DNA of 64,000 nucleotides from positions 62,001 to 126,000 of the forward strand of contig NZ_JAALCR010000021.1 of the NCBI RefSeq assembly GCF_011065895.1, read 5' to 3'. Numbering within the stretch: the first letter of the stretch is position 1; every line of letters starts with the position of its first letter. A model generated the notes under the pieces. The model saw nothing but the letters and a program-made list of their open reading frames with translations. It was not told where the DNA came from and did not search any database. This DNA comes from Paludisphaera rhizosphaerae. Lineage in GTDB: Bacteria; Planctomycetota; Planctomycetia; Isosphaerales; Isosphaeraceae. Made by a program: the position numbers and the translations under genes. This document shows, one piece after another, positions 3,651-42,200 of the stretch.

Positions 3651-6600
3651 ATGTCGAGCCGACCGTTCTGCCATCTTCACTGCCACAGCCACTACAGCCT
3701 GCTCGACGGGGCCAACAAGCTCCCCGACCTGGTGAAGCATGTGAAGTCGAGCGGCATGTCGGCGGTTGCGGTGACGGACCACGGCAACCTCTTCGGCGCA
3801 GTGGAGTTTCTCCGCGAGGCCAAGTACGCGGGCGTGAAGCCGATCGTCGGCATCGAGGCCTACGTCGCGCCGGGCAAGCGGACGGACCGTTCGAACAGCG
3901 GCTCGGGCGAGGAGAAGTTCGCCTACCACCTGACGCTGCTGGCGAAGAACGGCACGGGCTTTCGCAACCTGCTGCGGCTGTCGTCGCGGTCGTACCAGGA
4001 GGGCTACTACTACAAGCCCCGCATCGACAAGGAGTTGCTGGCCCGCTACAGCGACGGGCTGATCTGCCTGTCGGGCTGCGTGGGGTCGGAGTTCTCCCAG
4101 CACCTGCTGCACGACCGCTTCGAGCAAGCCGAAAAGCTGGCGATCTGGTATCAGCAGACCTTCGGCGAGGGGAACTTCTACGTCGAGATCCAGGACAACG
4201 GCCTTCAAATCCAGCGCGACGCCCGCGAGCGCCAGGTCGACCTCGCCCGCAGGCTGGGCCTGCCGATCGTCGCCACCAGCGACGCCCACTACCTGAAGCA
4301 GGAAGACCACCTCTCGCACGACGTCCTGCTCTGCATCAACACCGGCAAGACGATCGACCAGCCGCTGGACAAGCCGCGGTTCGTGGACGACTCCGGCAAC
4401 AAGATCTCCGACCAGTTCCACGTCCGCACGCCCGACGAGATGTACGCGGCCGCCAAGGGGTATGAAGAGGCCCTGAAGCAGTCCACGCTCATCGCCGAGA
4501 TGGTCGAGGACAACTACGCCAGCGCCGAGCTGGGCAAGCGGCAGTTCCCCTCGTTCCAGCCTCCGGACGAGAAAACCCCCGAGCAGTATCTTCGCGACCT
4601 GTGCGATCAAGGACTCCGCGAGCGATACCCATCTCCCACCCCGCCGGAGGTCCTGGAGCGGCTCGACCACGAGCTGGCTACGATCAACCGGATGGGCTTC
4701 GCCTCGTACTTCCTGATCGTCTGGGACTTCGTCCGCTACGCCCGCGAGAACAACATCCCGGCGTTGGCGAGAGGCTCGGCGTGCGGGGCGCTCGTGGCGT
4801 ACGCGCTGCGGCTCAGCGACGTCTGCCCGCTCAAGTACGACCTCCTGTTCGAGCGGTTCCTGGACCCAAACCGGTCGGAAGCGCCTGATATCGACATCGA
4901 CCTCTGCCAGGAACGGCGGTACGAGGTCATCGAGTACGTCCGGCGCAAGTACGGCGACGCCAACGTCGCGCAAATCGGCACGTTCGGCACGATGAAGGCC
5001 AAGGCCGCCATCAAGGACGTCGGCCGGGCGATGAACATGCCGCTGTCGCGGGTCGAGGAGATCAACAAGCTGATCCCGACCCGCCTGAACATCACCCTCG
5101 ACGAGGCCATCGCCGAGGAGCCGATGCTCCGCAAGCTCAGCGAGTCCGACCCGGAGGTCGAGAAGCTCCTGAATTTCGCCCGCCGGCTGGAGGGCTCGGC
5201 GCGCAACGCCAGCACGCACGCCGCCGGCGTGGTGATCGCCGACCAGGCGCTGGAGAGCCTCGTCCCGCTGCAGGTGATCCGCCGCGGCGACAAGGAGGAG
5301 GTCGTCTGCACCCAGTGGGACATGGGCGACGTCGAGAAGGCCGGCCTTCTCAAGATGGACTTCCTCGGCCTCCGCAACCTGACCACGCTCCAGGCGGCCG
5401 TGAAGCTCATCACCGAGCGCCACCCCGAGGACAACCTGGACCTCGGCAAACTCCCGCTCGACGACCCCGAGGCCTTCGCGCTGCTCCAGCGCGGCGAGAC
5501 CAAGGGCGTGTTCCAGCTCGAATCGGCGGGCATCCGCGACCTGCTGGTGAAGATGAAGCCCGACCGCTTCGCGGACATCATCGCCACCAACGCGCTCTAT
5601 CGTCCCGGCCCGCTCAACGGCGGTATGGTCGACGAGTACGTCGACGTCAAGAACAAGCGGAAGGAAGCCTCCTATCTGCATCCCGTGCTGCGGGAAGTCC
5701 TGGAAGAGACCTACGGGGTCATGGTCTACCAGGAACAGGTCATGCGGATCCTCAACCGCCTGGGGGACATCGAGCTCTCCAAGGCGTACGCCTGCATCAA
5801 GGCCATCTCCAAGAAGAAGATGGAGACCATCGCCGAGGGCCGCGACCAGTTCATCAAGGGCGCCATCGCCAAGGGGCTGGAGAAGGACAAGGCTGCGGGC
5901 ATCTTCGAGCTGATCGTCTTCTTCGGCGGCTACGGCTTCAACAAGTCGCACTCCACGGCCTACGCACTGGTGGCCTACCAGACGGCCTACCTCAAGTCGC
6001 ACTACCCCACGGAGTACATGGCGGCCGTCCTCTCGTCCGAGATGGGGGGCGCCGAGCGCGATAAGTTCTTCGTTGAACATATCGATGACTGCCGCCGCAT
6101 GAACATCGAGGTCCTGCCGCCCAACGTCAACCAGGGCGAGGCCACGTTCACCGTCCACACCGAGGGGAAGATCGAGTTCGGCCTGGAGGCCATCAAGGGC
6201 GTCGGCGCCAAGGCCGTCGAGGCGATCATCAAGGCCCGCGCCAAGGACGGGCCGTTCAAGAGCCTGGAAGACTTCTTCGAGCGGATCTCCAACCGTGACG
6301 TCTCCGCCGCCGCCGCCGAGACCCTCATCCGCGCCGGGGCGTTCGACTTCCTGGGCGCCCGGCGGTCGCAGTTGCTGGCCATCCTCCCCCGCGCCATGCA
6401 GGGGGGCCAGTCCAAGCAGGAGGACCGCAAGCGCGGCCAGCGCGGGCTGTTCGACGACGACGACACGGCCCCGGCCTCGAACGGCCCGGTCGCGTCCAAC
6501 CTGCCGGACGTCCCCGAGCTGCCGGACGTCGAGCGGCTCCTGGGCGAGAAGAAAGCCCTGGGCTTCTACATGTCCAGCCACCCGCTCTCCCGCTACGCCG

Positions 6601-7367
6601 ACAAGCTGGAGGCCCTGGCGACCCACCGCGCGGCGGACATCGCGGCGGCGGCTGCGAAGCTCAAGGAGTCTTCCGGCGGCTCGTCGGGCGGGGGCGGCGG
6701 TCGGGGCGGGTTCCGCGGCGGCGGCGGCGGCGGCGGCAACCGGATGGAGGTGATCCTGGGCGGGCTGGTGACGAACGTGCAGGTCCGCAACGTTCAGAAG
6801 AGCCGGTCCGGGCTCACTCGCATGGCCAAATTCACCTTTGAAGACCTGAGCGGCTCCACGCCGGCCATGCTCTGGCCGGAGGAGTTCGCCAAGATGGGCG
6901 ACGTCATCAAGGACGACGCCATCGGCTTCATCAAGGGGACCATCGACCTCAGCCGGGAGCCCGCCGAGATCGTCGTCAGCCGATTCATCCCGATCGAGAA
7001 CGCCGACGCCGAGCTGTCCAAGGGGGTTGTCGTCACGCTCCGCAAGGGGGTCCAGCAGCAGGAGGACCTGGAACGGCTGCTGCGGATCGTCCGCGTCCGC
7101 CCGGGGAACCTGGACCTCTACCTGGAGATCTTTGGCATCGAGAACGTCCGCCGCGTGATCTACCGCGCGGGGGCGTCGATGAAGGTCAAGTACGACGACC
7201 GGATGGTCTCCGAGATGGGCTCGGTCGTCGGCCCGGCGAACGTCCGCCTGCTGGGCGCCCGCGGCGCCACCGCCCGCGCCGAGGTCCTCACCGCGTCCGC
7301 GCCCTCGCCCGCCGTCGGCCGCGACGAGCCGATGGAAGACGGGATGGAATCCGGGGACGACGATTGA
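3651..7367 (+). CDS. dnaE: DNA polymerase III subunit alpha
   Basis: A 1238-residue replicative polymerase. The N-terminal PHP domain begins at once (HLHCHSHYSLLDGA, then VTDHGNLFG). The palm follows with catalytic aspartates in PDIDIDLC at about residue 412. Next come the fingers (TFGTMKAKAAIKDVGR), the finger/thumb signature GYGFNKSHSTAYALVAYQTAYLK, a helix-hairpin-helix (GLEAIKGVGAKAVEAI, about residue 843), and an OB domain (about 1031 onward) with VTNVQVRNVQKSRSG. Between HhH and OB there is an unusual glycine-rich linker of about 25 residues. ATG 3651 is chosen because it directly precedes the PHP motif and has GGGAG upstream; a GTG at 3606 would add 15 unconserved residues. Its length is close to E. 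coli DnaE (1160). Confidence 0.97.
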   Translation: MSSRPFCHLHCHSHYSLLDGANKLPDLVKHVKSSGMSAVAVTDHGNLFGAVEFLREAKYAGVKPIVGIEAYVAPGKRTDRSNSGSGEEKFAYHLTLLAKNGTGFRNLLRLSSRSYQEGYYYKPRIDKELLARYSDGLICLSGCVGSEFSQHLLHDRFEQAEKLAIWYQQTFGEGNFYVEIQDNGLQIQRDARERQVDLARRLGLPIVATSDAHYLKQEDHLSHDVLLCINTGKTIDQPLDKPRFVDDSGNKISDQFHVRTPDEMYAAAKGYEEALKQSTLIAEMVEDNYASAELGKRQFPSFQPPDEKTPEQYLRDLCDQGLRERYPSPTPPEVLERLDHELATINRMGFASYFLIVWDFVRYARENNIPALARGSACGALVAYALRLSDVCPLKYDLLFERFLDPNRSEAPDIDIDLCQERRYEVIEYVRRKYGDANVAQIGTFGTMKAKAAIKDVGRAMNMPLSRVEEINKLIPTRLNITLDEAIAEEPMLRKLSESDPEVEKLLNFARRLEGSARNASTHAAGVVIADQALESLVPLQVIRRGDKEEVVCTQWDMGDVEKAGLLKMDFLGLRNLTTLQAAVKLITERHPEDNLDLGKLPLDDPEAFALLQRGETKGVFQLESAGIRDLLVKMKPDRFADIIATNALYRPGPLNGGMVDEYVDVKNKRKEASYLHPVLREVLEETYGVMVYQEQVMRILNRLGDIELSKAYACIKAISKKKMETIAEGRDQFIKGAIAKGLEKDKAAGIFELIVFFGGYGFNKSHSTAYALVAYQTAYLKSHYPTEYMAAVLSSEMGGAERDKFFVEHIDDCRRMNIEVLPPNVNQGEATFTVHTEGKIEFGLEAIKGVGAKAVEAIIKARAKDGPFKSLEDFFERISNRDVSAAAAETLIRAGAFDFLGARRSQLLAILPRAMQGGQSKQEDRKRGQRGLFDDDDTAPASNGPVASNLPDVPELPDVERLLGEKKALGFYMSSHPLSRYADKLEALATHRAADIAAAAAKLKESSGGSSGGGGGRGGFRGGGGGGGNRMEVILGGLVTNVQVRNVQKSRSGLTRMAKFTFEDLSGSTPAMLWPEEFAKMGDVIKDDAIGFIKGTIDLSREPAEIVVSRFIPIENADAELSKGVVVTLRKGVQQQEDLERLLRIVRVRPGNLDLYLEIFGIENVRRVIYRAGASMKVKYDDRMVSEMGSVVGPANVRLLGARGATARAEVLTASAPSPAVGRDEPMEDGMESGDDD

Positions 7368-7792: not shown

Positions 7793-9508
7793 TCAATCGC
7801 CGCCTGGCTCGTCTTCGTCCATCGGCAAATCCTCATCCTTCGGCTCCGGGCGGCGGAGGGCGGGGAGTTCGATGGTGAAGGTGGAGCCTCGGCCCAGCTG
7901 GGACGTCACCTGGATCGTCCCGCCGTGCTCGCGGACGATCTTCTGCGAGACCGGCAGGCCCAGGCCGGTCCCGCGCGAGCCCTTGCTGCTGGCGAAGATC
8001 TGGAAGATGCCCGCGATATCGTCCTCGGCGATCCCCTTGCCGTTGTCCTGCACGCGGATGCGGACCACGCCCGTGTCGGCGGCGTTCTCGATCGAGACGG
8101 CCACTCGGGGCTGGTTCGCTCCTTCGGCGGCGTCGATCGCGTTGGTCACCACGTTCAGCACGGCGCGGTGGATGCCGTCCGGGTCGACCCAGATCTTGGG
8201 GAGAGCCTCGCAGGGGGCCCAGTCGAGCTTCACCTCGAACTCCGCGGCGCGTGACTGCATCAGCTCCACGACGTCGCCGACGGTCTCGTTCAGGTCGGTC
8301 GGCTCCAGGGCGGGCTCGCGGTCCTTGCTGAACGAGAGCATGTCCATGACGAGGTTGTAGATCTTCGTTTGGTTCTTCTCGACGATCGTCCAGCCCCGGC
8401 GCACGATCGACTCGTCCTTCTCGTTGAGGCCCAGGTCGATCAGGTAGCTCCCCCCGCGCACGCCTTGAAGGATGTTCTTGATGTGGTGCGAGAGCGTGGC
8501 GATCGTTTGTCCGACGGCGGCCAGGCGTTCGGCCTGGATCTTGTCGTTGTAGAAGGTGGTGTTCTCGATGGCCAGCCCGGCCTGGTGGCCGATGGCGACC
8601 ATCAGCATCAGGTGGTCCTGCGAGAACTTCCCGCGACGCCCCGGCTTGCCCACGGGGATGAGGGCGGAGCCGTCGGACTGGATGTCGGCGTAGAGGACGC
8701 CCAGCGTGGTGTGGCGGCCCTGGACGGGGACGCAGATGGCCTCCCGGATGCGGAAGTCCATGATCGATTCGGCCGGGCCGAACCGCTTGTCGCCGGGGGC
8801 GTCGGACGTGATGACCCCCTGCCCTTGCTCCAGCACGTAGTCGGTGATCGTGCTGGAGATCGTCATCCGCTCCTCGGCGTCGGCCGGGATCCGCCAGCGG
8901 ACGGCCTTGGGGACGAGCGCTCCGGATTCATCACGCAGCAGGATCGCGCCCCGGTCGGCGCCGATCGACTCGAAGACCAGCTCCAGCACCTGCGGCAGCA
9001 GCGAGTCCACGTCCAGGATATTGCTGACGGCCTGCGTGGCTCGGTACATCACCGAGAGGTTCATCAGCCGCTCGCGGAGCCATCCCGCAGCGCCGTCGGG
9101 CTGCTGAAGGACCCGCGAACCCTCGTCGGAGGGGATGCTGCGGAGGATGGCCGAGCGGTCCTCCGGGCTGCTCTTGCTCAGCAGGTCGACCCGCGTCGTC
9201 AGGTCGCGCCGGCTGTCGAGCACGCCCTCATTGTAGAGCATGACCGTCTGGCCGAGCTGCAGCCGGTCCCCGGAGCGCAGGGGGGCCTGATCGACCAGGT
9301 GGCCGTTGATGAACGTGCCGTTGGCCGACCCCAGGTCGACGATCCGGAAGACGTCGTCCTCCAGCCGGATCTCCGCGTGCCGGCGCGAGACCTCGGTGTC
9401 GTGCAGGCGGATCGGGTTCGAGGCGTCCCGGCCCAGCCCCACGGCGCTGGACTGGAACTCGAACCGCTTGCCCTGATCGGCCCCCTGGATGACGAACAAG
9501 GAGGCCAC
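7793..9508 (-). CDS. FHA-GAF sensor histidine kinase
   Basis: A 571-residue cytoplasmic kinase without membrane segments. The order is: FHA domain (about residues 1-95, with GRDASNPIRL, SRRHAEI and GSANGTFINGH, which normally bind phosphothreonine); GAF domain (about 160-310); a dimerisation/phosphoacceptor helix with LSHHIKNILQG; and an HATPase domain with N box NVVTNAIDAAE, G1 DNGKGIAEDD and G2 GTGLGLPVSQKIV. GTG 9508 is chosen because GAGGAG lies ten bases upstream; the TTG at 9517 is only one base from that site. No response regulator is adjacent, so it is an orphan kinase. It may link Ser/Thr kinase signalling to a two-component pathway (inference). Confidence 0.9.
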   Translation of the reverse strand: MASLFVIQGADQGKRFEFQSSAVGLGRDASNPIRLHDTEVSRRHAEIRLEDDVFRIVDLGSANGTFINGHLVDQAPLRSGDRLQLGQTVMLYNEGVLDSRRDLTTRVDLLSKSSPEDRSAILRSIPSDEGSRVLQQPDGAAGWLRERLMNLSVMYRATQAVSNILDVDSLLPQVLELVFESIGADRGAILLRDESGALVPKAVRWRIPADAEERMTISSTITDYVLEQGQGVITSDAPGDKRFGPAESIMDFRIREAICVPVQGRHTTLGVLYADIQSDGSALIPVGKPGRRGKFSQDHLMLMVAIGHQAGLAIENTTFYNDKIQAERLAAVGQTIATLSHHIKNILQGVRGGSYLIDLGLNEKDESIVRRGWTIVEKNQTKIYNLVMDMLSFSKDREPALEPTDLNETVGDVVELMQSRAAEFEVKLDWAPCEALPKIWVDPDGIHRAVLNVVTNAIDAAEGANQPRVAVSIENAADTGVVRIRVQDNGKGIAEDDIAGIFQIFASSKGSRGTGLGLPVSQKIVREHGGTIQVTSQLGRGSTFTIELPALRRPEPKDEDLPMDEDEPGGD

Positions 9509-9651
9509 GGGGTTCAAGCTCCTCGGCTGGGCGTGGAAGAGGAAGAGGCGGACGGACGGCGATCTCAGAAAGACACCCCGTCACCGTAACCCATGCCTCC
9601 GAGCCCGTCAACCGCCGGCGCGAGCGTCACTCATCCAGGACCATAACGACC

Positions 9652-9690
9652 TTCCCTCCTCGCGGGGGAGGGCGGCCGCTCAGGAGTTGC
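9652..9690. repeat. REP-like palindromic fragment
   Basis: CCTTCCCTCCTCGCGGGGGAGGG resembles one end of the palindromic repeats at 18688 and 20232. It sits between the divergent kinase promoter region and the end of the PEP-CTERM gene. The rest of 9509-9764 shows no gene. Confidence 0.4.
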
Positions 9691-9764
9691 CAGTTGTCCG
9701 TTGTCAGGAACAATCGTGGGTTGTTCTGGCTAAGAACTGAGAACCGGCAACTGAGAACTCCCTG

Positions 9765-10316
9765 TCAGTCGTCCCGACGCCTCATTAACCGACGCCCTCG
9801 CAGCCCGGCCGCCCCGATGACCGCGATCGACGCCGAGACCCACGCCGAGGGCTCCGGCACCGGCGCGGCAACCACGTTAACCGTGTAGTTCGCGCTGATC
9901 GTCACTCTGTCGCCGGCGGCGGTGGTCACGCCGACATCGAAGGTCGCCGGAGCACCATTGATGTTCACGCTATACAGGCCCACCGCGGACGTTGGGTCGA
10001 TCGTCACCGTGAACAAGGCGCCCGTGTACGTTCCCCCGCTCGGGAGCGTGAAGAAGATGGGACTCGCCTCCAGGCGCGTCGAGGTCCCGGCCAGATAGGG
10101 GAAATAGACCCCCGTACTGGCGAGGCTGGCGCCCGGGTCCAGGTGCAACGTGCCCGTGAACGTGTAGGAAAACGAGTCGGAGGCCAGGGTGACCGTCGGG
10201 TTTGGGACGTCCAGCGTGACGGTGCTCGCCGCGTCGGCTGGGGCGGCGAGGCCGCCGATGAGCAGGGTGGCGGCGAGGGCGGCCGCGATTCGGGACTTGA
10301 GGCGCATCGGCTTCAT
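9765..10316 (-). CDS. PEP-CTERM sorting domain protein (paralogue 1)
   Basis: A 183-residue exported protein. The N-terminus is a signal peptide (SRIAAALAATLLIGGLAAPADA, cleavage probably after ADA). The middle is a Ser/Thr/Gly-rich beta-sheet region of about 120 residues. The C-terminus is a PEP-CTERM signal: VPEPSAW, a hydrophobic helix, then RGRRLMRRR. Such tails are processed by an exosortase and link proteins to the surface or exopolysaccharide. ATG 10316 is preceded by CAGGAG; an ATG at 10307 is an alternative. It is clearly related to the next gene on the same strand (10613-11176), so the pair arose by tandem duplication. Function unknown. Confidence 0.85.
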   Translation of the reverse strand: MKPMRLKSRIAAALAATLLIGGLAAPADAASTVTLDVPNPTVTLASDSFSYTFTGTLHLDPGASLASTGVYFPYLAGTSTRLEASPIFFTLPSGGTYTGALFTVTIDPTSAVGLYSVNINGAPATFDVGVTTAAGDRVTISANYTVNVVAAPVPEPSAWVSASIAVIGAAGLRGRRLMRRRDD

Positions 10317-34007: not shown

Positions 34008-35615
34008 TCAGGGGAGGACTCGCGCGCCGACGGCCGTGTCGAGGTCGAGGACCGCTCGGCGATGGCGGACGATGGAGTCGCGATAGTCTCGAACGCGTTC
34101 GTTGAAATCGCGCTGGGCGTCCAGGAACTCAACGATGTTCGATTCCCCCCCCTGCCAGCGGCGGTAGGCGGCGTCGCGGACGCGTCGAGACGAGGGGAGG
34201 ATACGGGTTTCGGCCTCGATCATCGCCAGCCGGCTCAGCTCGAACTCGTTGACGGCGTCGACGATCTCGTCCTGAACCACGCGCTCCATTTTGGCCGCCT
34301 CAAGGTGGGTCTGATCGACGTTGAGTTTGGCGCGGGCGATGTTCCCCTGGTTGCGGTTGTAGATGGGCATCGGCGCCGTCAAACCGACGGCCCACGACAT
34401 GGCGCTCTTCACGCCGCTGGGCCGGTTGTCCTGCAGCGTGTACGGCTGGTACAGCAGGAAGAAGTCCGAGAGCCGCTCCCGCTGGGCCAGGCGGACGTCG
34501 GCGTGGGCTCGCTGAAGGCCCAGACGCATGGCGATCAGGTCCGGGCGACGCTCCATCCCCATCGCGATCAACTCGTCCTGCGACATCGGGAGCGGACGAT
34601 CGTCGCGAAGCTTGTCCTTGATTCGAAGGGTCGGTGCCTGATCGCGCGGCACGTCCAGCAACTGCGCGAGCTGGCGGGTCGTACGAGCGAGCGACTGGGT
34701 GGCCTCGCGGATCTGGACCTGAGCCATTTCGTGCTGGGCGCGAAGCGCGAAGACAGGGTCCTCGGCGATCTGCTTCTTCTCGTAGAGGTCCTCGTTGATC
34801 TTCAGAAGCTGACCGATCCCCTGAAGGTACTTTCGGCTGTATTCCAGGGTGAGGTCCGCGGCGGCGACGTCGACGAACGCCGTGAAGAGGTTGTCGACCT
34901 GAAGCCGGATGGCGTCCTGGAACTGGGCCTCGACGGCGCGTTGGGCTGCTCGGGCCACCTCCTTGCGCACCTTCCGCTTGCCGTTGGCGTCAATCGGGTG
35001 GGTGATGTTGACGTCGTACTGCGTCTGTCCGCCAGGCCGGGACGATGAATAGTGCCCGTACGGGACGAGCTGGGCGTCGGCGTAGAAGATGGGGTTCGCC
35101 CAGAGGCCGGCGGTGAGAACGTCGGCCTCGGCCATCGGGATCTCGTACTTCATCGCCAGCAGCGTGAGATTCCGCTGCAGCAACGTCTGGATCGTGTCGT
35201 CCAGCGTAAGGCCGTTCTCATCGCCGATGACGACGTCGGAGCCCGGCAGGTCCAGGGCCCCATACGCCGGCACCGACGCTTCAGGAAGGGCGCGAACTCG
35301 GAAGTCCGGTCCCCCTTCCTGACGGCCTCGCGCCGACCGGGGGTTTCCCGAATCCAGCGGCGCTCGTGTCACCGACGGGCCAGCGCGGCCGCCCACGACC
35401 GGTTCTGGAGCCTCCCCGAAGGGGGAGATCCCCGACGCTCCTGGCGCCGGACCGAGCAAGCTTCTGCCCTGGGACGTCCCGGGAGGATCGGGGACGTCGA
35501 ACTGCGCGTTCTGGCCGAGGCATGTCGAAGCCATCGTCAGGCCTAACGCCGCGAGCGTCAGAACACGGACGACGGCGACCCGAGCGGGGCGGTGATTGAG
35601 GAATCCCTGGCTCAT
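34008..35615 (-). CDS. TolC family outer membrane efflux protein
   Basis: A 535-residue protein with a signal peptide (VLTLAALGLTMASTCLG) and a low-complexity linker of about 100 residues before the conserved part. The body has the two-fold TolC pattern: LTLDDTIQTLLQRNLTLLAMKYEIPMAEADVLTAGLWANP, then long helices, ELIAMGMERRPDLIAMRLGLQRAHADVRLA in the second repeat, and a final EFLDAQRDFNERVRDYRDSIVRHRRAVLDLDTAVG. TolC trimers form the outer membrane exit duct of export pumps. No inner membrane pump or adaptor is adjacent. ATG 35615 has AAGGAG upstream. Confidence 0.92.
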   Translation of the reverse strand: MSQGFLNHRPARVAVVRVLTLAALGLTMASTCLGQNAQFDVPDPPGTSQGRSLLGPAPGASGISPFGEAPEPVVGGRAGPSVTRAPLDSGNPRSARGRQEGGPDFRVRALPEASVPAYGALDLPGSDVVIGDENGLTLDDTIQTLLQRNLTLLAMKYEIPMAEADVLTAGLWANPIFYADAQLVPYGHYSSSRPGGQTQYDVNITHPIDANGKRKVRKEVARAAQRAVEAQFQDAIRLQVDNLFTAFVDVAAADLTLEYSRKYLQGIGQLLKINEDLYEKKQIAEDPVFALRAQHEMAQVQIREATQSLARTTRQLAQLLDVPRDQAPTLRIKDKLRDDRPLPMSQDELIAMGMERRPDLIAMRLGLQRAHADVRLAQRERLSDFFLLYQPYTLQDNRPSGVKSAMSWAVGLTAPMPIYNRNQGNIARAKLNVDQTHLEAAKMERVVQDEIVDAVNEFELSRLAMIEAETRILPSSRRVRDAAYRRWQGGESNIVEFLDAQRDFNERVRDYRDSIVRHRRAVLDLDTAVGARVLP

Positions 35616-35803
35616 CCTGAACGAACTCCTTGGACGGCTCCGCCGCCCACCGCATCACAGCGGATCTCCAACAGCCCGATCGGCTGCGGCACGTCGTTTC
35701 GGTTCGTTCCAGGTATCGGCCCGTCCCGGCTACCGGTTTAACGGCTTTCTCTCGGATCCGGATCTTACGCATGCAAGCTAGAACCAGCAAATCCCCCAAT
35801 TCC

Positions 35804-36652
35804 TCAGAACTTGCCCCCTCGCCCGCGACGAAGGCCAACCACTCCAAGGGCCCCGATACCGAGCATGACCCAGGTCGACGGTTCGGGAACGGCGGGGGCG
35901 TCCATCGTCGTCAGGTTGTCGATCGCGGCGTAGGTCGGAACGATCGGCCCATACGCGTTGGCCACATTGGTGGAGAAGACGAAGTTGAGGCTTCGCGACG
36001 CCCCCAGCGATGTCAGGTCGATCGTCTGCCAGGCGGTGAGGATCGCCAGCGACGTCCCGTATCGGGCCAGGTCGATCGAGACGCTCCCCAGGAGCGAGCC
36101 CGTCGCGCCGGCCGCCGAATAGCCCTGGATGGTGAGGGTCAGGTAGTCCCCCTCAGCGAACTTGGTATCGAAGCCGTTGATCCCCTGGGTGACAGCGTTG
36201 TAGACGTACTCGACGTTGGTCACGTCGAGCGACTTGATGTAGCGGCCGGCGGCGAGATCCACATAACCGAGGCTGTCGTAGATCGGATTCGGCGACGTGT
36301 ATGAGGTGACGACGGCGTAAGTGTTTCCCGCAGTGGTTTGCGCGACCGCGGAGAACTGGCCGAAGTAGGCCCCTGCCGAAGCCGTGGTCTGATTTGAGAA
36401 CGCCCAACCGCTCCAGTACGTGCCGTAGGTCGGGTCGGACGCGTAGACGTTGTTATAGAAATTGCCGTCGACGGTGTACCCGGCCGCCCCACCCATCGGC
36501 GAGGGGAGACTGGCGCTGTTGATGACGAAGCTCTCGGCGGAGCCGATCGGGACGTTCGAGTAGGTGGAGACGATGTCTCCGGCGCGGACGGCCGGGGCCG
36601 CGAGGACCAGGACGAGTATCAGCAGACGAGTCGAGGCGGGCGCGAGACGCAT
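35804..36652 (-). CDS. DUF4465 domain PEP-CTERM protein under a cobalamin riboswitch
   Basis: A 282-residue exported protein with a signal peptide (LLILVLVLAAPAVRA). The body matches DUF4465: YWSGWAFSNQTT, GNTYAVVTSY, LDVTNVEYVYNAV, FAEGDYLTLTIQGY, LTAWQTIDLTSLGASRSLNFVFST and a late PTYAAIDNL. The tail is a PEP-CTERM signal (VPEPSTWVMLGIGALGVVGL, then RRGRGG) for exosortase processing. ATG 36652 has CCAGGAG upstream. A cobalamin riboswitch lies about 145 bases before the start, so the gene should be repressed when B12 is abundant. Surface display plus B12 control suggests capture of cobalamin or related corrinoids (inference). Confidence 0.87.
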   Translation of the reverse strand: MRLAPASTRLLILVLVLAAPAVRAGDIVSTYSNVPIGSAESFVINSASLPSPMGGAAGYTVDGNFYNNVYASDPTYGTYWSGWAFSNQTTASAGAYFGQFSAVAQTTAGNTYAVVTSYTSPNPIYDSLGYVDLAAGRYIKSLDVTNVEYVYNAVTQGINGFDTKFAEGDYLTLTIQGYSAAGATGSLLGSVSIDLARYGTSLAILTAWQTIDLTSLGASRSLNFVFSTNVANAYGPIVPTYAAIDNLTTMDAPAVPEPSTWVMLGIGALGVVGLRRGRGGKF

Positions 36653-36659
36653 GGGTGGG

Positions 36660-36690
36660 ACTCCTGGAGACGAGGCGCGCGGAGCGAGCC
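36660..36690 (-). promoter_or_regulatory. GC-rich hairpin next to the DUF4465 ribosome site
   Basis: On the transcript, GCGCGGGCTCGCTCCGCGC folds into a hairpin just before CCAGGAG and the start codon. It is placed so that the riboswitch could control translation through it. A further hairpin, GGATGCT...AGCATCC, lies between it and the riboswitch. Confidence 0.4.
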
Positions 36691-36796
36691 CGCGCGGGGA
36701 TGGGGGTCGTCAGTTTCCGGTGAGTCGCTGTGAGCAGATCGCCTGCGTTCGCGCTCGCCCGGATGCTCGCGGCCGAAGCATCCCAAGCAAAAGAAT

Positions 36797-36940
36797 CTCG
36801 ACGGGCAGGTCTTCTGGCTCACGGCCTCGCATCGAGCGGCCTTCCCACCTTGCGGCAGTGGCTCTGCGGCTCGTGCTTGCGACCGTTTACAGCGGCGGCC
36901 CCGCGCCGGAATTTCACCGGCTTCCCTATTCTTCCCATTG
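36797..36940 (-). ncRNA. Cobalamin (B12) riboswitch
   Basis: Read on the minus strand, the sequence shows the conserved core in order: GGGAAGCCGGTGAAATTCC, GGCCGCCGCTGTAAAC (the CCGC-CTGT element), GAGCCACTGCCGC, AAGGTGGGAAGGCC, and the highly conserved GAGCCAGAAGACCTGCC near the 3' end. Those elements are diagnostic of the adenosylcobalamin riboswitch family. It lies in the 5' leader of the DUF4465 PEP-CTERM gene, about 145 bases upstream of its ATG. No other B12 gene is nearby. Confidence 0.95.
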
Positions 36941-36960
36941 ATCAGAGTCGAACTCGCCGA

Positions 36961-37864
36961 CTCCTGGGACGCCCGTCGAGGCGATCGATTAGAACACCGT
37001 CGCGAGCGGGGAGTCAAGCGACCGCGCGCCAGGGACGACTTGCGTCCCACGACATGAACCACGCAACCACTTAATTCGATTCCCGGTCACCCGACCAAGG
37101 AAGGCGGGTTTGACGAGTGAGATTCCTGGCAGCCAGGACAAAGAAGGCACTTTGTGAGTAAGTTCATTCGTAGAGGGAACCAGCGCACGCGGACTCTTTG
37201 ACATCTCGGTTGGATCGTGAGAAGGGCCGATCGCGAGGCCGCCACTGCCGCCTCGGCGAGCCCGCCGACACAGCATTCATCCACGCAGTTAATCACCGAC
37301 CTGATGTTCTCGGCCGACTGAGTTGGTTGGGGCGATCTGCGTTTTGGATGCTCGTCACACGGCACCACCGAAGAAAGGGGGACCTGGGGGTCACAACCGC
37401 ACATGCATGCATTTCGATTGATATTGGTAGCGTTGAGCGAGAAGTGCTCAGGATTTCCAGCGATTGCGCGCAAACGAAGCCGTTGGGTTTTCAGACGCAA
37501 CAACGGTAGCTGTATTGATTTGCAATCAGGACCGGGTTGTGCTTCGAGCGCAAACGAACCCATCGTCGGGGGCCTCGACGATCACGCTTCAGGAAGCATG
37601 ACAGGGGCGAGGCCGCTGTCTGGGACCCGCCGCGGTCCCTGGTCGGCGGCCACGTTGAAGAGCGAACAAGGAGTGGTGTCCGGGAATCTCATCCGCCACC
37701 CAGAGTCTCGCGCGGCCGGACTCTCGGCCGCGAGACGATTGGACTTGAGCCCTTTTTCGAGGTCTGCTAGGTTTCGCCTCGATTGATCGCGGCCGGCGCG
37801 TCGGCGTCGCCGTTCGGTCGGCTCGCCGTCGGATCCGCCCCAATCGGCAAGGAGGCCTCGTGGC
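36961..37864. other. About 900 bases without a recognisable gene
   Basis: The base composition is less GC-rich than around it. Several open frames exist on both strands, but their translations are rich in Cys, Arg and Ser without domain-like patterns, and none has a convincing ribosome site. A hairpin (GTCTCGCG... with CGGCCGCGAGAC) lies near 37705-37737. The region probably holds the upstream promoters of the riboswitch transcript and of the 37865 gene, and may include decayed sequence. Confidence 0.4.
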
Positions 37865-39356: not shown

Positions 39357-40253
39357 GTGACGCTCGATACCGCTTCCGTCTCGTCCCGCGCCCACGTCAG
39401 CCAGCTTCAGGCCGGCGAGGCGAACGCCCCCGTCGGCCCCAGCTTCCCGATCGACGACGAGCGTCGGGAGTGGCTGCTGAACAACCTCGGCGAGGCCACC
39501 TGCCGCAAAATCGGCGTCTACCGCATCCCTCCCGATTTCGTCCTCTCCGTCGTCATCCCCGTCTACAACGAACGCAAAACCATCCACGAAATCCTCCGCC
39601 GCGTCCGCGCCGTTCCCATCCGCAAGCAGATCATCCTCGTCGACGACTGCTCCAAGGACGGCACCGCCGACATCCTCCGCGATCTCGCCAAAACCGACGA
39701 CGACCTCACCGTCGCCTTCCACGAGGTCAACCAGGGCAAAGGCGCCGCCCTCCGAACCGGCTTCAAACACGCCACCGGCGACGTCGTCATCGTCCAGGAC
39801 GCCGACCTCGAATACGAACCCGAGCAGTTCCCCGAACTCCTCCAGCCCATCCTCGAAGGCAAGGCCGACGTCGTCTTCGGCTCCCGGTTCGTCGGCGAAA
39901 CCCACCGCGTCCTCTACTTCTGGCACTCCGTCGGCAACCGCGTCCTGACCATCCTCTCCAACATGTTCACCAACCTGAACCTCACCGACATGGAGGTCTG
40001 CTACAAGCTCTTCAAACGCGAAATCATCCAGAGCATCCCCCTGAAGAGCAACCGCTTCGGCTTCGAGCCCGAAGTCACCGCCAAGGTCGCCCGCTACCAA
40101 ATCAAAGACGAAAACGGCGGCACCCGCGCCTGCCGAATCTACGAAATCCCCGTCTCCTACCACGGCCGTACCTACCGCGAAGGCAAGAAAATCGGCGTCA
40201 AAGACGGCTTCCAGGCCCTCTACTGCATCGTCCGGTTCGCCTTCGGAGACTAA
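39357..40253 (+). CDS. GT2 family glycosyltransferase (DPM1/polyprenyl-phosphate type), copy 1
   Basis: A 298-residue enzyme starting at GTG 39357 with AGGAGG eight bases upstream. The nucleotide-sugar site is clear: [39 protein letters not shown], and the DxD-like metal motif in [38 protein letters not shown] and [22 protein letters not shown] match dolichol/polyprenyl-phosphate mannosyl- or glucosyltransferases. Codon choice (many AAA and GAA, C-ending) differs from the AAG/GAG-rich neighbours, hinting at transfer. Bases 39452-40255 are repeated, apparently without change, at 41399-42202. Confidence 0.9.
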
Positions 40254-41309: not shown

Positions 41310-42200
41310 GTGCCGCCAGCGTCAAGTTCGCCGAAATCGTCCTGTTCGCCAAAGTCCCATTTCGGCTGTATTCCCGAAGCCGAGAAATTGGCAAGAGGCG
41401 ACGACGAGCGTCGGGAGTGGCTGCTGAACAACCTCGGCGAGGCCACCTGCCGCAAAATCGGCGTCTACCGCATCCCTCCCGATTTCGTCCTCTCCGTCGT
41501 CATCCCCGTCTACAACGAACGCAAAACCATCCACGAAATCCTCCGCCGCGTCCGCGCCGTTCCCATCCGCAAGCAGATCATCCTCGTCGACGACTGCTCC
41601 AAGGACGGCACCGCCGACATCCTCCGCGATCTCGCCAAAACCGACGACGACCTCACCGTCGCCTTCCACGAGGTCAACCAGGGCAAAGGCGCCGCCCTCC
41701 GAACCGGCTTCAAACACGCCACCGGCGACGTCGTCATCGTCCAGGACGCCGACCTCGAATACGAACCCGAGCAGTTCCCCGAACTCCTCCAGCCCATCCT
41801 CGAAGGCAAGGCCGACGTCGTCTTCGGCTCCCGGTTCGTCGGCGAAACCCACCGCGTCCTCTACTTCTGGCACTCCGTCGGCAACCGCGTCCTGACCATC
41901 CTCTCCAACATGTTCACCAACCTGAACCTCACCGACATGGAGGTCTGCTACAAGCTCTTCAAACGCGAAATCATCCAGAGCATCCCCCTGAAGAGCAACC
42001 GCTTCGGCTTCGAGCCCGAAGTCACCGCCAAGGTCGCCCGCTACCAAATCAAAGACGAAAACGGCGGCACCCGCGCCTGCCGAATCTACGAAATCCCCGT
42101 CTCCTACCACGGCCGTACCTACCGCGAAGGCAAGAAAATCGGCGTCAAAGACGGCTTCCAGGCCCTCTACTGCATCGTCCGGTTCGCCTTCGGAGACTAA
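41310..42200 (+). CDS. GT2 family glycosyltransferase, copy 2 with replaced N-terminus
   Basis: A 296-residue frame whose last 267 residues equal copy 1 (39357-40253), including the DDCSKDG and DADLEYEPE motifs. The first about 30 residues are unrelated and low in hydrophobic pattern; they come from unique sequence before the duplication border at 41399. GTG 41310 has GGAG about ten bases upstream, but this site may be chance. All conserved catalytic elements are inside the shared part, so the copy could be active if translated; it could also be a silent duplicate lacking the native promoter. Confidence 0.72.

Follow-up and report, generated by a model that had tools for sequence, protein, structure and literature searches.

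The stretch of DNA analyzed here (the window) comprises 64,000 nucleotides of the genome of Paludisphaera rhizosphaerae, a planctomycete of the order Isosphaerales (contig NZ_JAALCR010000021.1). Its minus strand carries a gene for a predicted exported protein with a DUF4465 domain and a PEP-CTERM tail, preceded by a cobalamin riboswitch and followed by a TolC-family gene (Table 1). A previous reading of this DNA from its letters alone had placed a B12 riboswitch in the leader of the DUF4465 gene, and a covariance-model search of the whole window (Rfam cmscan) bore this out: the match to RF00174 scored 107.9 bits against a gathering score of 31.5 (E value, 4.7e-26), covered model positions 1 to 189 of 189, and was the sole Rfam match in the window at gathering score. 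The element itself thus stood, but the end given for it earlier did not, as the aptamer reaches 36991, about 50 nt farther. A riboswitch on the wrong strand was ruled out, the RF00174 match lying on the minus strand like the DUF4465 gene.

Table 1. Features of the riboswitch-DUF4465 locus (window coordinates)
Feature	Position	Strand	Basis
Exported DUF4465 (BtuJ-family) gene with PEP-CTERM tail, 282 aa, ATG start	35804..36652	minus	ORF, Pfam
Probable signal peptide, about residues 1-24	36581..36652	minus	Hydrophobic N-terminus, boundary by eye
DUF4465 domain PF14717, residues 76-247	35912..36427	minus	Pfam, 105.7 bits (cutoff, 25)
PEP-CTERM sorting signal, residues 254-276	35825..35893	minus	PF07589, 26.4 bits (cutoff, 20.7)
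Cobalamin riboswitch aptamer RF00174, full length	36787..36991	minus	Rfam cmscan
Leader from aptamer to start codon, putative expression platform	36653..36786	minus	Conservation, fold
TolC-family outer membrane protein (OEP), unit membership uncertain	34008..35615	minus	PF02321, 125.3 bits
Conserved 19-nt element, candidate OEP control site	35701..35719	minus	Conserved in same-genus copies

The riboswitch lies 134 nt from the ATG of the DUF4465 gene, and a GGAG is found 8 nt upstream of this start codon. Among five same-genus copies the leader has a mean column identity of 86%, and a GGGATG strand within it has two possible partners, one in an invariant hairpin and a second that is likewise invariant; in 4 of the 5 leaders a GACTC could also pair with the ribosome-binding GGAGTC, forming a possible anti-Shine-Dalgarno helix. 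These alternative pairings make it plausible that the riboswitch acts on translation of the DUF4465 gene. Despite the conservation, covariation in the consensus fold is nearly nil (2 of 37 pairs), and the folding z-score is -1.91. Neither an intrinsic terminator nor a sigma-70-type promoter was found between 35550 and 37250, by a weak scan in which shuffled sequences gave 1.0 and 0.2.

Downstream, the OEP start codon lies 188 nt past the DUF4465 stop, and the 19-nt element in this gap occurs nowhere else in the window when as many as 3 mismatches are allowed. Of six genomes from the genus, five have an OEP gene after the riboswitch and DUF4465 gene, in the same orientation; this adjacency is seen only within the genus. 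The TolC-family neighbor described previously is present on the same strand, and the conserved element tells somewhat against the suggestion that it shares the transcript. Elsewhere in the window, two copies of one gene part (39452-40253 and 41399-42200; spacing, 1947) share at least 300 identical nucleotides, and their translations agree by eye to the gene end. We take the duplicated genes to be glycosyltransferase-like and the gene between the copies to be methyltransferase-like.

A divergent PEP-CTERM member of the BtuJ family

All three parts that the sequence-only reading had assigned to the protein were recovered. The PF14717 match spans profile positions 3 to 176 of 176, the tail matches TIGR02595 (24.4 bits; cutoff, 16) in addition to PF07589 and combines a PEP motif, a hydrophobic stretch, and a basic end with scores above cutoff, and the signal peptide is judged from the strongly hydrophobic N-terminus alone. 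An AlphaFold2 model of the protein (three rows) had a mean pLDDT of 42.9 and was discarded, so that the structural argument made here is one of sequence profiles only. A profile of the 38 DUF4465 proteins of the order, the window's included, matched the B12-complex structures 9HMU (E value, 9.8e-52), 9FCT (1.3e-39), and 9I2L (4.9e-20), and the window protein alone matched 9HMU with an E value of 1.5e-12. At conserved columns it retains Tyr149, Tyr241, and Pro239; the column of Tyr149 holds tyrosine in 37 of the 38 proteins and that of Tyr241 in 29 of 38, and we read these two residues as lying in the predicted DE and HI loops, where they would correspond to Y146 and Y245 of BtuJ1.

The window protein is nevertheless the lowest scoring of the complete DUF4465 proteins of the order set (107 bits), compared with about 194 to 195 bits for the genome's second copy (C3), and its HI loop reads IVPTYAA against a consensus of NTPAYFA and NTPGYF in the C3 copy. 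Its five nearest same-genus relatives share 39 to 57% identity with it, and 3 of the 5 (G029, G030, and G031) lack the HI-loop tyrosine. By these sequence comparisons the window gene represents, together with its closest relatives in the genus, a divergent DUF4465 paralog, and the changed HI loop together with the tyrosine loss in three relatives suggests that this paralog may have an altered affinity or ligand. At the loci of the three relatives without the tyrosine (L055, L057, and L059), the riboswitch is retained.

The published work on DUF4465 features the motif IPR013424, which we take to be PEP-CTERM, and the genus Mucisphaera, presumably a planctomycete. The available text of one study reports that eight divergent DUF4465 proteins, including one of Mucisphaera, bind B12, with members of identity down to 16% still binding, and describes 9HMU as a B12-bound DUF4465 structure and 9FCT and 9I2L as further B12 complexes; a term search of the same text returned no mention of PEP-CTERM or exosortase (PMC13398666). 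The consulted sections of a family survey, in which BtuJ1 and BtuJ2 are the names of the Bacteroides thetaiotaomicron members, place IPR013424 at the C terminus of 88 of 824 family members, class these as carrying an extracellular targeting motif, and propose an extracellular role; they also report a periplasmic signal on 21% of the DUF4465 proteins surveyed and describe the B. thetaiotaomicron proteins as lipoproteins present in vesicles (PMC12751083).

Because DUF4465 is a published B12-binding family, the exosortase-anchored corrinoid-capturing protein envisaged in the sequence-only reading is strongly supported by analogy, with the profile matches to B12-complex structures, the riboswitch linkage, and the presence of exosortases all pointing in this direction. 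The suggestion that DUF4465 genes occur near B12-controlled loci in Bacteroidetes was also sound, as the B. thetaiotaomicron genes lie in cobalamin-riboswitch loci and the DUF4465-B12 link is published. Published accounts cover both B12 binding by DUF4465 proteins (PMC13398666, PMC12751083) and the C-terminal sorting motif on members of the family (PMC12751083), so neither B12 binding by DUF4465 nor the combination of domain and tail is new. The window protein is a further member of the group of 88, and it shares with BtuJ1, BtuJ2, and D5EK51 of Coraliomargarita the Pfam domain, predicted export, and the conserved loop tyrosines (PMC12751083, PMC13398666). It differs from BtuJ1 and BtuJ2 in that those are lipoproteins encoded in loci with BtuB and BtuG, whereas here we find a PEP-CTERM anchor and no TonB-dependent receptor in the genome. 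Relative to the survey, the riboswitch linkage in planctomycetes, the setting without TonB receptors, and the coregulated partners described below do not appear in its consulted sections (PMC12751083).

Linkage of riboswitch and DUF4465 across the phylum

A survey of riboswitch-DUF4465-PEP-CTERM linkage in planctomycetes had been suggested with the sequence-only reading, and we carried it out in 45 genomes of Isosphaerales, which belong to a single family, and in a wider sample of the phylum. The searches of the 45 genomes scored only part of the loose first-look candidates (44 of some 670 riboswitch candidates in the P. rhizosphaerae genome, under stricter filters, and 54 of 95 for the A2 family described below), and the resulting counts are therefore lower bounds. 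We recovered at least 39 DUF4465 matches in 29 of the 45 genomes and at least 92 cobalamin riboswitches in 41 of them. A riboswitch lies upstream, on the same strand and within 3 kb, of 36 of the 39 DUF4465 matches; random placement would give 0.017, which rules out chance linkage. Of the three exceptions, two are near contig ends (G044 and G035) and one is partial (G037). In the rest of the phylum DUF4465 is rare, with 11 loci in 10 of the 391 other genomes sampled (392 including P. rhizosphaerae), and here too a same-strand upstream riboswitch is present at 10 of the 11 loci, the eleventh match starting 128 bases from the contig start. At an E value of 0.01 or lower (Pfam), PEP-CTERM signals were detected in 34 of 38 DUF4465 proteins of the order, some below the curated cutoff, and in 8 of 11 outside it, three of the eight below that cutoff.

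Exosortases, TonB receptors, and B12 synthesis

Exosortase matches are present in all 45 genomes of the order, and P. rhizosphaerae has three (best E value, 2.5e-62). The tail of the window protein, with its scores above cutoff, and these exosortase matches resemble the known exosortase/PEP-CTERM system (TIGR02595, PF07589, and PF09721), the difference being that the cargo here is a probable vitamin trap whose sorting is predicted. The plug domain of TonB-dependent receptors was found in 0 of the 45 genomes and the barrel in 1, a genome of 85% completeness with a short match on a single contig, in searches for which the controls (Escherichia coli, Caulobacter, and Bacteroides) were all positive for both domains; in P. 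rhizosphaerae itself neither plug nor barrel was found. As a single marker for de novo B12 synthesis, rather than a reconstruction of the pathway, we used CbiC, which is present in 10 of the 45 genomes. The P. rhizosphaerae genome has no detected CbiC match and four matches to B12-binding domains. DUF4465 occurs in 27 of 35 CbiC-negative genomes versus 2 of 10 CbiC-positive genomes (Fisher P value, 0.0017, uncorrected for kinship), and the available text of PMC8941943 describes the same inverse relation to B12 synthesis for btuH in gut Bacteroidetes.

Other members of the riboswitch regulon

The P. rhizosphaerae genome has at least five cobalamin riboswitches. Besides that of the window gene, one (at C3) precedes the second DUF4465-PEP-CTERM gene, whose tail scores 19.6 bits, just under the cutoff, and one (at C4) heads a BtuCDF-like operon of FecCD, ABC_tran, and Peripla_BP_2 genes, with below-cutoff matches to the NCBIfam models for BtuC and BtuF. 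A second riboswitch target at C4 is a PEP-CTERM protein with no Pfam domain in its body (L050, 8343-9167), here termed A2, and the riboswitch at C6 precedes a prepilin-like DUF1559 gene with an N_methyl segment (L051, 9198-10163; 154 bits). The genome therefore resembles a Bacteroides-type B12 locus (BtuB, BtuG, and lipoproteins) in having a riboswitch-controlled BtuCDF-like importer and differs from it in that no TonB-dependent receptor was found in the whole genome to go with the binding protein.

To describe the regulon across the order, we tallied genes on the same strand up to 4.5 kb downstream of the 92 riboswitches, with family profiles built from our own seeds and weak matches dropped (A2 and ABC below 150 bits, BtuF below 120, and others below 60). 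DUF4465 is linked to 35 of the riboswitches, A2 to 15, and DUF1559 to 43, with 68 having at least one of the three. The tally also includes the names CobN, MetE, RNR, DUF6580, and diphthamide-like, which we assigned from sequence appearance. Only 7 of the 45 genomes had a FecCD (btuC-like) gene linked to a riboswitch, so the importer lies mostly outside the observed regulon.

All 15 near-full-length A2 matches reported in the 45 genomes are riboswitch linked, in a search whose profile was itself built from riboswitch-linked rows. A 14-row A2 profile matched residues 373 to 473 of the BtuG1 structure 8BLW (E value, 2e-5; 27 bits over 101 residues), and the C terminus of BtuG1 is described in the available text of PMC10404256 as a BtuH domain of roughly 250 residues. 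The match falls near the start of this H-domain, and A2 may therefore be a distant relative of BtuH. No BtuH2 structure was among the A2 profile matches even at an E value of 10, and we rejected A2 as a proven BtuH. The likeness to BtuH and the BtuG1 H-domain of B. thetaiotaomicron extends to fusion with another B12-related domain, while the differences are that the similarity is weak and partial and that A2 carries a PEP-CTERM tail rather than lipidation (PMC8941943 and PMC10404256, as far as their available text covers these proteins).

DUF4465 and A2 share one reading frame in three genomes (G001, G002, and G275). In L062 (5962-7623) and L063 (8705-10441) a single frame comprises a signal peptide, DUF4465, an internal PEP-CTERM segment, and a BtuH-like domain, and that of L062 adds a second PEP-CTERM-like tail after an apparent second signal peptide; the product may be a precursor of two proteins. 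In a distant planctomycete, a riboswitch is followed in a row by DUF4465, BtuH-like, prepilin-like, BtuF-like, BtuD-like, and BtuC-like genes (L163, 1571-7747).

DUF1559 genes downstream of riboswitches

DUF1559 is an abundant family, and its density was accordingly compared within the same loci: the 391 strand-kb that follow riboswitches hold 46 matches and the other 1,532 strand-kb hold 20, a density ratio of 8.8. Riboswitch-linked DUF1559 genes occur in 32 of 35 CbiC-negative genomes versus 3 of 10 CbiC-positive genomes (Fisher P value, 0.00025, uncorrected for kinship). A tree built from 60 DUF1559 rows placed 28 of the 46 linked rows in one group (support, 90/88), which included not one of the 14 unlinked rows. 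A further seven linked rows, all from genomes without DUF4465 and without CbiC, formed a second group (100/99), and the remaining 11 were placed elsewhere; relatives would cluster in any case, several long branches were flagged, and the bootstrap is unsettled. Outside the order, our own DUF1559 profile detected a prepilin-like gene beside 10 of the 11 DUF4465 loci, the four weakest having N_methyl without Pfam DUF1559. Two arrangements of paired riboswitches were also seen: in L078 of G038 the DUF1559 and DUF4465 genes are each preceded by a riboswitch of their own (8145-8365 and 9619-9820), and in L165 of G181 a divergent pair lies between the two genes (6096-6221 and 6426-6630).

Discussion

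Computation established the riboswitch, the DUF4465 domain and sorting tail of the protein, the presence of exosortase genes, the linkage throughout the lineage, the scarcity of TonB receptors, and the anti-CbiC trend. Together these lead us to consider it highly likely that the window gene encodes a BtuJ-type protein that binds cobamides, is exported and tethered on the outside of the cell by its PEP-CTERM tail, and is repressed by cobalamin, forming the capture arm of a B12-scavenging regulon. At low cobalamin the riboswitch would permit expression of the DUF4465 gene, and binding of cobalamin by the leader riboswitch would turn it off, so that the protein would be made only when cobalamin is low. 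The protein would then be exported, its tail processed by exosortase, and the tethered product would hold a cobamide at the surface before handing it to an inner-membrane importer. Binding of B12 by the window protein is expected by analogy with its characterized relatives, surface anchoring and B12 repression are what its tail and riboswitch predict, and the captured B12 would presumably cross the outer membrane to reach the importer.

Two other readings concern the protein itself. The divergence of the window copy raises the possibility that it has moved off cobalamin, toward another corrinoid or ligand or a role as a B12-regulated adhesin, leaving the C3 copy as the real B12 binder; its low domain score, its altered HI loop, and the loss of the tyrosine in three of its five nearest relatives favor this. 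We nonetheless consider it unlikely, since the window copy keeps Tyr149, Tyr241, and Pro239, the riboswitch is retained upstream of all five nearest relatives, and published members at 16% identity still bind B12 (PMC13398666, available text). Alternatively, the DUF4465 protein could be a periplasmic B12 chaperone, with the PEP-CTERM tail a mere processing signal, in line with the 21% of surveyed proteins that have a periplasmic signal. The same survey files IPR013424 members under an extracellular targeting motif and finds the B. thetaiotaomicron proteins to be vesicle lipoproteins (PMC12751083, consulted sections), and a BtuF-like gene in the P. rhizosphaerae genome already fills the periplasmic role, all of which makes a chaperone distinctly unlikely.

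A further reading joins the DUF4465 and TolC-family genes in one riboswitch transcript and makes the TolC-like channel the outer-membrane conduit for the cobamide. The neighborhood lends it something: besides the order of genes conserved in 5 of 6 genus genomes, 3 of the 6 have a related OEP (about 41 to 44% identity) after riboswitch-DUF1559, the 26 OEP domain matches in the P. rhizosphaerae genome in total make adjacency to DUF4465 uncommon, and the weak scan found no terminator-like site in the gap. When the order's remaining riboswitch loci were searched with a subfamily profile, however, none had an OEP within 4.5 kb, and the gene order may simply reflect inherited synteny. The genome also encodes two more OEPs of equal similarity, the conserved 19-nt element points to a separate OEP promoter, and the NCBIfam matches of the OEP, all far below cutoff, are to efflux and secretion outer-membrane models. 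We regard this reading as very improbable.

The characterized outer-membrane route for B12 is the TonB-dependent BtuB. With B12-regulated, probably surface-bound traps in the lineage, a BtuCDF-like importer in the P. rhizosphaerae genome, and no TonB-dependent receptor found, capture by a surface-tethered DUF4465 protein calls for another route across the outer membrane. One tentative and rather doubtful proposal is that the order takes up cobamides without TonB, with exosortase-anchored BtuJ-like traps, BtuH-like traps, or both handing B12 to a B12-repressed, prepilin-like DUF1559 protein; this would form or decorate a surface fiber or pseudopilus that takes the ligand across the outer membrane to the importer. 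DUF1559 is described as the paralog group with the most members in Planctopirus limnophila, its function being unknown (PMC10632474), and pili-like fibers at the crateriform structures of other planctomycetes are described as binding dextran (PMC5394234), both statements taken from portions of these papers; these fibers may be linked to DUF1559.

Where PEP-CTERM genes and cobalamin riboswitches were found treated together in the accessible literature, the riboswitches next to PEP-CTERM genes are of the c-di-GMP class, and those for cobalamin neighbor cobalamin synthesis genes. We found no published report joining exosortase, riboswitch, and B12, nor one joining DUF1559 and cobalamin, and the consulted main text of a genome comparison of the Isosphaeraceae mentions neither cobalamin nor TonB (PMC5352709). 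No report of the regulon described here was found in a search that mostly covered papers outside subscription. By the same search, the universal exosortase, the near-absence of TonB receptors, the infrequent co-occurrence of DUF4465 and CbiC, and riboswitch control of A2, DUF1559, and (in 7 genomes) btuC-like genes in this order were not found in print.

This lineage keeps B12-regulated, probably surface-bound traps, seemingly without the usual outer-membrane importer of B12. Its riboswitch regulon provides a short list of candidate parts, namely, DUF4465, the BtuH-like family, and DUF1559, and B12 control offers a handle on the roles of some branches of the DUF1559 family.
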